Below, one piece after another: positions 26,890 to 53,448 of a DNA stretch of 64,000 nucleotides. Source of the DNA: Oscillospiraceae bacterium (GTDB lineage: Bacteria; Bacillota; Clostridia; Oscillospirales; WRJC01); contig WRHM01000006.1 of the NCBI GenBank assembly GCA_009783265.1, positions 62,001-126,000 on the forward strand, in the 5' to 3' direction. The position numbers and the translations under genes were made by a program. Positions within the stretch are counted from its first letter, which is position 1. The number at the start of each line of letters is the position of its first letter. Under the pieces are notes generated by a model, which saw only the letters and a list, made by a program, of their open reading frames with translations, was not told the origin of the DNA and did not search any database.

Positions 26890-27041
26890 ATTTAAAAATA
26901 AAATAAATATTTTATAAATATTATGTAAGATTTTAATTGTCTGATGTGTATATATATTAGACGCGTCAAAAAAGGCAAAATAATAAAACAGATTTTTTAT
27001 TATTTTATAGAAAGGAGCGGATTTATATAGATTATATAAAT

Positions 27042-27590
27042 GTGAAAGAGATGGAAAATATGGATAATGATATTTCCGGAATCAACACTGATAATAATTT
27101 TTTCGAAAAATATACTCCACAGATACGCTCTATTGTCGCAAGAATTTTAAATAACGCAGGACAAACCCGCGATATTGACGACTGTGTGAGTACCGTATTT
27201 TTAGAGCTTATGGGAAAATTACAGCAATATAACGAAACTCGCGGAAGTCTGGCAGCGTTCATAACTGTAATTTCGCGCTCGGTAGCTTTGAATTATTGCA
27301 GAGATAACAGGCGACAAATCTATGAGCTGATAGGCGACGATAAAATTGATTTTTTGAGTAATCCTTTGAGATTTGAAAGCGAAGTTGAATTTGATATGCT
27401 TGTAGAGAGTTTATTTGAAAAATTAAATAAACAGGAACGCGCTTTATTTACTATGCGGTTTATATTATTTTACCCGCCTGAAGAAATCGCGAAAAAATTA
27501 AAAATCACAAGAAACGCCGCTGACGTGCGTTTAAACAGAATGAAAAGTAAAATAAAGAAAATTTTGACAAAAGGAGGAATAACTTTATGA
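27042..27590 (+). CDS. ECF-type RNA polymerase sigma factor
   Basis: The 182 residues have a sigma region 2 (FFEKYTPQIRSIVARILNNAGQTRDIDDCVSTVFLELM, then RGSLAAFITVISRSVALNYCRDNRR) and a region 4 (LFEKLNKQERALFTMRFILFYPPEEIAKKLKITRNAADVRLNRMKSKIKKIL). The start is uncertain: GTG 27042 is the most upstream, ATG 27051 and ATG 27060 are alternatives, and the best Shine-Dalgarno (AAGGAGCGG, 27012-27020) is too far from all of them. The stop overlaps the next gene by 4 nt (ATGA), the usual coupling of ECF sigma and anti-sigma genes. Confidence 0.88.
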   Translation: MKEMENMDNDISGINTDNNFFEKYTPQIRSIVARILNNAGQTRDIDDCVSTVFLELMGKLQQYNETRGSLAAFITVISRSVALNYCRDNRRQIYELIGDDKIDFLSNPLRFESEVEFDMLVESLFEKLNKQERALFTMRFILFYPPEEIAKKLKITRNAADVRLNRMKSKIKKILTKGGITL

Positions 27591-52025: not shown

Positions 52026-52146
52026 TTTAACTTTTTTATGATATAATGTCTCTTTAATATTATGTAGGCCTACATAAATCAATAAAGCAATAAATCAAAA
52101 ATAAAAGCGAGGGTGAACCGTAATTTTTGAACAGGATAATTTTAAA

Positions 52147-53448
52147 TTGGAATATGAAAGAATTGTCTTGACATATAATAAAAAATTATTTTTATACATA
52201 ATAAAAATGCTGTGCAACAATAAAGACCACGCCGAAGAAATAACTCAGGAGACTTTATTGACGGGATATAAATATTTCGGAAGCCTCAACGACAGGCAAA
52301 AAGTTTTTCCATGGTTAAAAACAATAGCGAAAAGAATTTATCTGCGCAGGTTTTACAGAAATAAAAATTATGATTCTGTTATTTCTCTTGATTCTCCCGT
52401 TTTTAGTAATTTTAACGAATTTGATTTAAGTATCGCAGACACGATTATCGACGATAGCGCAGATATTGCCGGAGATTACGAACAAAGCGAATTATGCGGT
52501 TATATCCTGAGCGAAATTGAAAATCTCTCGCAAAAGCAAAGAAATTCTGTTATACTTCGTCATTTTTACGGCTATTCTGTAAAAGAAACTGCTGATTTGC
52601 TAAAAATGACAGATAACAGCGTTAAAGTTTCTTCGCATATCGGACTTGAAAAAGTAAAAGAACGGTTAAAAAATTATTTTATTAAAGGAGATTATATCAT
52701 GAATTGCAAAGAAGTATACGCGTATTTGTTTCAATACGCAAAAAATAAGATTTCAGGACATGAAAAAGAAGAAGTCGAAAAGCATATAAATATATGCAAA
52801 GATTGCCGGGATATAACTCAGTCTCTGGCAGAACTGACAAAATATATTTCCCCGGCTCAGGAAAAAGAACACAGGAATTATGTCGTGCATTTTCAGTTGC
52901 CTGAATTTTCGCTCGAATATGTCACTGTAAACATGGAAGTTGAAAATTATCAGGAAATAAACGCAAAAATCGAAGAATGGGAAGGAGAGATACCGTTTGA
53001 CAGTATATATCTCAGGTATCCGGGATTTAATTTTGCTTTTACACAGGCAGATTTCACAAGGGAAATGTTAGCCGAATTCGGAGATAACGGGTTCAGGCTG
53101 CCTTTTGAAGAAATTGAACGCGACGATAATTTTGTAAAATACCGTTATACAAAAATGAACAAGATAAACAATCCCCATGAACTGGCGATTGTTTATAAAT
53201 CAAACGAAAAAAAATTAAAGCCGTCGGTTGAACATCCGGATTTAATATACGGATACGGCCAAAATTGGGCGAGAAGAGAATGCGGCGGGAAAATCGGGGT
53301 ATATCTTGCAATCCCGTCAAACGCAAAAAATCTGAGAATCAAACAGGGCGATAGTGTTGCCGATTGCGGAGCGTATAAATTTATATGCGCTGACAGGCAT
53401 GTGCTATATAACGAGCATGTAACTGTAAATTGTTCATATATTAAATAA
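52147..53448 (+). CDS. ECF sigma factor fused to a zinc-finger anti-sigma domain
   Basis: The 433-residue frame holds a complete ECF sigma factor (1-184: region 2 LFLYIIKMLCNNKDHAEEITQETLLTGYKYF; region 4 LSQKQRNSVILRHFYGYSVKETADLLKMTDNSVKVSSHIGLEKVKERL). At residue 185 an ATG (52699) opens an anti-sigma-like zinc finger (MNCKEVYAYLFQYAKNKISGHEKEEVEKHINICKDCRDI, the H-x3-C-x2-C motif), followed by ~210 residues ending in a beta-rich domain. An intact ribosome site AAAGGAG (52684-52690) precedes that internal ATG, so a second shorter product is likely. The start is TTG 52147 or ATT 52123. Confidence 0.85.
   Translation: MEYERIVLTYNKKLFLYIIKMLCNNKDHAEEITQETLLTGYKYFGSLNDRQKVFPWLKTIAKRIYLRRFYRNKNYDSVISLDSPVFSNFNEFDLSIADTIIDDSADIAGDYEQSELCGYILSEIENLSQKQRNSVILRHFYGYSVKETADLLKMTDNSVKVSSHIGLEKVKERLKNYFIKGDYIMNCKEVYAYLFQYAKNKISGHEKEEVEKHINICKDCRDITQSLAELTKYISPAQEKEHRNYVVHFQLPEFSLEYVTVNMEVENYQEINAKIEEWEGEIPFDSIYLRYPGFNFAFTQADFTREMLAEFGDNGFRLPFEEIERDDNFVKYRYTKMNKINNPHELAIVYKSNEKKLKPSVEHPDLIYGYGQNWARRECGGKIGVYLAIPSNAKNLRIKQGDSVADCGAYKFICADRHVLYNEHVTVNCSYIK

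Follow-up and report, generated by a model that had tools for sequence, protein, structure and literature searches.

Nested start sites at the joint of fused ECF sigma factors: a sigma-anti-sigma gene of an Oscillospiraceae bacterium that may encode both the fusion and its free partner

The window analysed here, a stretch of 64,000 nucleotides of contig WRHM01000006.1 from an Oscillospiraceae bacterium, contains a gene in which an ECF sigma factor is joined in one frame to a zinc-finger anti-sigma domain, with a ribosome-binding site and an in-frame start codon kept at the joint. We propose, with a probability of roughly two in three (0.68), that this one nested gene gives rise to a sigma-anti-sigma fusion and to an excess of free anti-sigma that buffers the sigma. 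Initiation at a weak ATT codon (52123) would yield the 441-residue fusion, while ribosomes loading on the same mRNA at AAAGGAG and ATG 52699 would yield a free anti-sigma of 249 residues, in excess over the scarce fusion. The free protein might then act in trans to silence or buffer the fusion's sigma half, in addition to inhibition in cis, and sigma would be released only upon the sensing of a signal by the ZAS or C-terminal domain. This layout is shared by many further fusions of a sigma to a partner (winged-helix, TPR/DUF3108, glyoxalase-like, APH, RCC1 and FtsZ_C). Comparison of sequences strongly supports the fusion itself and the view that an in-frame start at the joint is under selection; translation of both products, the excess of the free partner and its buffering role are what we infer.

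The single open frame at 52147-53448 reported in the initial annotation is present in the window, and Pfam and the sequence agree with its description of an ECF sigma joined to a zinc-finger anti-sigma with AAAGGAG, a spacing of 8 nt and an ATG at 52699-52701 (Table 1). The gene has the ECF layout, i.e. Sigma-70 regions 2 and 4 with no region 3 domain between them; PF04542 scores 24.0 bits, equal to its cut-off of 24, PF08281 31.5 bits (cut-off 25.7) and TIGR02937 52.2 (cut-off 42.9). The sigma half is thus an ECF sigma by domain content, and its direction of a promoter is predicted. PF13490 reaches 27.6 bits (cut-off 22.2), and the zinc finger, C-x...-HINICKDC, shows the H-x3-C-x2-C pattern of class I ZAS domains. 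The assignment of the partner to this class rests on the zinc-finger domain, sigma binding and inhibition being predicted. No Pfam domain was matched after zf-HC2 in the window protein, and the C-terminal domain of about 190 residues appears soluble and beta-rich in the AlphaFold2 model, with no apparent transmembrane segment. The model of the fusion is shallow (5 sequences, pTM 0.54); Foldseek searches with two models returned mainly sigma-domain matches, the overall fit being poor, and did not identify the C-terminal domains.

Table 1. Features of the fused sigma-anti-sigma gene and its upstream region (positions in the window)
Feature	Position	Strand	Basis or remark
Candidate ECF-type promoter: TTTAACTTTTTT (52026-52037) and TGTCTCT (52047-52053)	52026..52053	+	Upstream alignment
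Perfect 18-bp palindrome TTATGTAGGCCTACATAA	52060..52077	.	Core TATGTAGGCCTACA conserved in ortholog
Full fusion ORF, 441 aa: ECF sigma, linker, zf-HC2 anti-sigma, C-terminal beta-rich domain	52123..53448	+	Probable ATT start; block conserved in ortholog L039
TTG, start in the initial annotation; probably an internal codon	52147..52149	+	TCG in ortholog; weak SD, -4.1
Sigma-70 region 2	52174..52365	+	Pfam PF04542
Sigma-70 region 4, ECF type	52501..52629	+	Pfam PF08281, E=1.4e-7
Shine-Dalgarno of nested start, AAAGGAG	52684..52690	+	SD energy -8.8; identical in ortholog
Nested ORF, predicted free anti-sigma, 249 aa	52699..53448	+	ATG 52699
zf-HC2 / ZAS anti-sigma domain	52705..52809	+	Pfam PF13490, E=3e-6, above cut-off
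Predicted zinc ligands of the zf-HC2 domain	C (52705), H (52783), C (52795), C (52804)		Read from sequence
C-terminal beta-rich domain, no Pfam match	52870..53445	+	AlphaFold2 model, strands from residue 251 on

At the joint, the window reads ATT AAA GGA GAT TAT ATC ATG AAT TGC, and the Shine-Dalgarno (SD) sequence lies in the codons AAAGGAGAT, which include GGAG. The nested protein begins M-N-C, and its ATG is placed as in the starts of free ZAS anti-sigmas, with the first cysteine 1-3 residues after the methionine; those of related bacteria begin MDGC, MREC, MQNC and MKNC. The gene is one uninterrupted frame and not a pair of separate, overlapping sigma and anti-sigma genes. At the level of sequence it has the conserved in-frame SD and start codon at a domain boundary that mark genes of the SctQ and Cas11 type.

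The comparison within the genus covered the window's genome and two other genomes, of which G002 is a MAG. An ortholog in G002 (L039, 77% identity) is the same unbroken fusion with an identical AAAGGAG-8-ATG. The window's own genome has one paralog and G002 has two, at 27-30% identity; these three are likewise fused and have kept the nested site. The peptides at the paralog joints are KGAVIM, GKANNM and KGENTM, and each in-frame ATG is preceded by an SD; AAAGGAG is also present in paralog L040. As the ortholog and the three paralogs are fused and keep the site, the fusion is neither an artefact nor a recent stop loss. A sequencing error or frameshift hiding a stop near 52680-52700 is ruled out by the ortholog, which shares frame and site, and the frames of the paralogs are also intact. 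Nor are the relatives fused without a ribosome site: they are fused with it. The origin suggested by the initial annotation, a one-off fusion through recent loss of a stop codon, had to be abandoned. No split close relative of the window gene was found, and the fused-plus-nested state occurs in the paralogs and, with another partner family, in more than 30 genera. By contrast, its suggestion that the junction start has been retained is supported by the relatives, which point to selection, and the layout permits both a fusion and a free anti-sigma; the proposed autoinhibited switch is a plausible hypothesis. The earlier interpretation was therefore right in kind, but too narrow in scope.

When the wider class is considered, a stop usually splits the best matches to the sigma plus zinc-finger portion, i.e. 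they are two genes. A split copy in genome G280 (L298/L299) was set aside as evidence, as it sits on two contigs and looks broken. Two of the paralogs, L036 and L037, have lost the zinc ligands (HINICKDC is replaced by YIKTDEEA), while the fusion and the nested start are kept.

Altogether, 36 ECF sigma genes of G002 and the window's genome lie in open frames of 326-1141 residues. According to BLASTP, their partners form eight groups, i.e. zinc-finger/beta, winged-helix-like (about 550 residues, 21 members), TPR/DUF3108, glyoxalase-like, APH, RCC1-like, FtsZ_C and one further pair, and the partner families are mutually unrelated. Where sigma region 4 ends, each of the 36 fusions has an SD and an in-frame ATG. 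When the best in-frame ATG within a 42-codon junction window was scored, the mean SD energy was -8.1 kcal/mol at the junctions, while control windows taken from the same 36 ORFs averaged -2.2 (p=2.4e-23), and an ATG was missing altogether from 158/383 control windows versus 0/36 junctions. The junction SD occurs in all three codon phases.

Beyond the genus, a sigma-winged-helix family is represented in 24 genera of the class (32 of 391 genomes), as well as in the phylum sample and in the order of one relative; 87 members from over 30 genera were analysed after removal of duplicates. These proteins are about 20% identical, with zero invariant columns in an alignment of 81 members. In 87/87 members, a start codon (86 ATG, 1 TTG) lies no more than 14 codons from where region 4 ends, compared with 26% in control zones, and the SD energy is -5 or lower in 86/87. 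L243 and L246, exceptions in the first pass, in fact carry KEGINM with SD and ATG, whereas L271 and L274, which do not have an ATG, carry TTG and GTG, respectively, in the same position, each after a strong SD (the frame of L274 is cut, and it is outside the 87). Such swaps fit a need for a start codon, and the pattern is therefore not explained by a structural need for methionine. Across the phylum, more than 100 related fusions keep the nested signal.

Taken more broadly, we lean towards the view that nested starts are built, as a general design rule, into a large class of ECF sigma-partner fusions of Clostridia-like bacteria, in which a sigma module ending in a ribosome-binding site has been joined to many unrelated partners, so that each gene would yield the fusion and the free partner, with some sigma starts being IF3-sensitive AUU, AUC or AUA codons that set the ratio of the products. 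As two paralogs have no zinc ligands and one partner is FtsZ_C-like, acting as a free anti-sigma would not be the role of every partner; with partners other than anti-sigmas, the free product must serve another role.

It might be argued that the fusion is the sole product and that the SD and methionine at the joint are relics of two genes, or by-products of a Lys/Glu-rich linker. Indeed, ECF region 4 ends in a Lys/Glu-rich stretch, such peptides tend to encode AAGGAG, and part of the junction signal has this origin: the SD energy expected from synonymous codons is -4.8 at junctions versus -2.4 elsewhere. In the Poribacteria fusions, too, an SD-like run occurs without an invariant methionine. 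However, the observed SD exceeds the synonymous expectation both in the genus (-3.36 versus +0.21 in matched windows, p=5.6e-13) and in the class (-1.92 versus -0.12, p=1.4e-4), although the family members are related and these p-values consequently overstate independence. The breadth of partners and the changes that preserve a start codon weigh more than the p-values. A relic would decay, yet the start codon persists throughout a family of such low identity, and TTG or GTG stands in place of ATG in two members. We thus regard this explanation as unlikely. The same constancy speaks against a translational pause site, at which the SD-like sequence would slow ribosomes between the domains and aid folding. 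SD-like sequences have been proposed as a cause of ribosome pauses, and the site does fall exactly between two domains, but pausing needs no start codon at initiation spacing and one is always present, TTG and GTG included, which makes a pause very improbable as the reason for the site.

Further comparisons bear on the junction signal itself. In the winged-helix family, 66 distinct hexapeptides lie upstream of the 86 ATG starts. The mRNA around the nested ATGs is weakly structured (-2.1 versus -6.4 kcal/mol, p=1.5e-27), to which the lower GC content of the junctions (0.33 versus 0.41) contributes. Among sigma-TM fusions, L025, L032 and L256 have no ATG at the joint, L257 has an ATG and no SD, and L027 has an ATG with an SD-like run too far upstream to convince; an ATG is likewise missing from the joints of the SnoaL fusions L054 and L075. 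A search with TIGR02957 (ECF41), intended to enlarge the negative control, yielded a single weak match. A Candidatus Poribacteria genome (G824, L278-L297) encodes at least 20 paralogous ECF sigmas with large C-terminal regions, and some of these fusions have an SD and ATG at the joint (e.g. KGDFIM in L279). As a caution, they were excluded as members, since their SD-like run is partly encoded by the peptide (KKEE) and the methionine is not invariant.

Two separate proteins could also arise from slippage on the A6 run at 52668-52673 into the -1 frame, where the stop TAA (52683-52685) lies just before AGGAG, and the window does read A_AAA_AAT in frame with this TAA in the -1 frame. However, both the A6 run and the TAA are absent from the ortholog (CTGAAAAATTATTTTATCAAAGGAG) and the paralogs, and such a programmed -1 frameshift was rejected as not conserved; its chances are minimal. 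Finally, the nested product may be the main regulator and the fusion a minor form with a separate job, e.g. bringing the regulator to the sigma's own promoter. In the winged-helix family, the free product would then bind DNA at an inverted repeat by the promoter and regulate its own gene. An ECF-like promoter, AACC-N14-22-CTATA, is found upstream of 47/83 winged-helix members (1% in shuffles), palindromes of at least 12 bp are enriched there (29% versus 7%), and a structure model displays winged-helix-like folds. In view of these promoters and palindromes, autoregulation by a free DNA-binding partner is possible. Such DNA binding is putative, however, and the window gene has a palindrome but no winged-helix partner; we consider such a division of labour unlikely. 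Both elements of the candidate promoter of the window gene recur upstream of its ortholog. The palindrome of the window is located between this promoter and the start and is possibly an operator; the palindromes upstream of many winged-helix fusions differ from it.

The TTG at 52147, from which the initial annotation started the frame, was set aside as probably not the sigma start on the grounds given in Table 1. In turn, ATT 52123 is preceded by an SD of -8.2 and lies within the block CCGTAATTTTTGAACAG, common to the window gene and the ortholog; the 17 nt are identical in both genomes and preceded by GAGGGTGA or GGGGGGAGAG. In the paralogs, the corresponding codon is ATC, ATA or ATG, and an unfused ECF ortholog trio, one in each of the three genomes of the genus, has ATG, ATT and ATA at matching codons. 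The conserved ATT is thus probably a better fit as the sigma start than the TTG. A strong SD before AT[TCA], with no good canonical start, was found in 7/39 sigma frames versus 4/149 in a sample of other frames (p=0.0018), which is suggestive of such starts being commoner among the ECF sigmas of the genus. Candidates of this kind, ATT, ATC or ATA behind strong SDs, are located at 52123 in the window, at L039:7209, L040:8291, L036 (minus) 5279 and L038 (minus) 4747, and in L212 and L217.

The closest parallel is the SigR-RsrA system of Streptomyces, in which the GTC start of sigR is repressed by IF3 and the ribosome-binding site of rsrA lies inside sigR, an arrangement that leads to an anti-sigma excess preventing leaky activity (PMC5472188). 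The window gene shares with it the combination of an ECF sigma with a zinc anti-sigma, a probable rare sigma start and an anti-sigma ribosome-binding site within the sigma coding sequence. However, sigR and rsrA are two overlapping genes (ATGA stop/start) with a GTC start, whereas the window gene is an in-frame fusion with a nested start and a candidate ATT (PMC5472188). It is because the window gene combines, in one frame, a probable rare start for the sigma with a strong one for the anti-sigma, the two ingredients of SigR-RsrA, that we propose a scarce fusion and an excess of free anti-sigma.

Reviews cover ECF sigmas that carry anti-sigma domains (ECF36, ECF52) or other extensions, for which the proposed modes of action are a change of conformation, an interaction between proteins or proteolysis (PMC8999054, PMC5826349). 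In ECF52 (SCO4117), as portrayed there, an ECF sigma is likewise covalently joined to a zinc-finger anti-sigma domain, but a transmembrane segment and a carbohydrate-binding tail follow, and release by proteolysis has been proposed (PMC5826349, PMC8999054). The window fusion is predicted to be soluble, and neither a transmembrane segment nor a carbohydrate-binding tail was found in it by Pfam or in the AlphaFold2 model. No nested start is described in the available sections on ECF52 and ECF36 (PMC5826349, PMC8999054). In ECF41, ECF42 and ECF56, a C-terminal extension regulates sigma in cis, as may be the case here (PMC3426412, PMC8999054); the two ECF56-like SnoaL fusions sampled differ from the window gene in the missing ATG.

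In SctQ/YscQ of type III secretion (PMC4295842) and Cas11b of archaeal Cascade (PMC11899642), an internal in-frame start is known to yield a C-terminal product that acts jointly with the full-length protein. These are not sigma/regulator systems, while in the sigma fusions, known here from their sequences, a whole architecture with several unrelated partners is involved. No report of a nested start in ECF fusions was found in the open-access literature, subscription journals being outside the scope of the search. Nested-start ECF fusions therefore represent a new combination of known elements, and apparently an undescribed architecture.

The interest of these genes rests on the pattern being systematic and directly testable. 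Genome annotation presents them as single long sigma factors, so that the second product would be missed in all such genes. Should both products be made, a single gene would encode the ratio of sigma to anti-sigma, a mode of stoichiometry control for which we found no description. Weak and strong nested sites, the ATG, TTG and GTG starts, the zinc-less paralogs and the various partners constitute natural variants for testing the roles of the covalent and the free regulator.

Several observations on the genus may be added. G002 displays an unusual expansion, with about 30 long ECF fusions in one 4.9-Mb genome. In the frame L038:3494-4747 (-), the partner of the ECF sigma is an FtsZ C-terminal domain (PF12327, 61 bits), and the joint carries GGGAGG and an in-frame ATG. 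Beside the fusion, the window contains a second, unfused sigma-like frame (26961-27587, +; 209 aa) with a weak ECF match and an ortholog in G002 (L036:8096-8671). Lastly, L205:769-2469 (+) and a minus-strand frame of L206 have closely similar sigma modules with differing partners, an APH-like kinase versus RCC1-like repeats (assigned by eye), i.e. a natural swap of partners at the joint; such near-identical modules suggest a portable cassette for synthetic switches.
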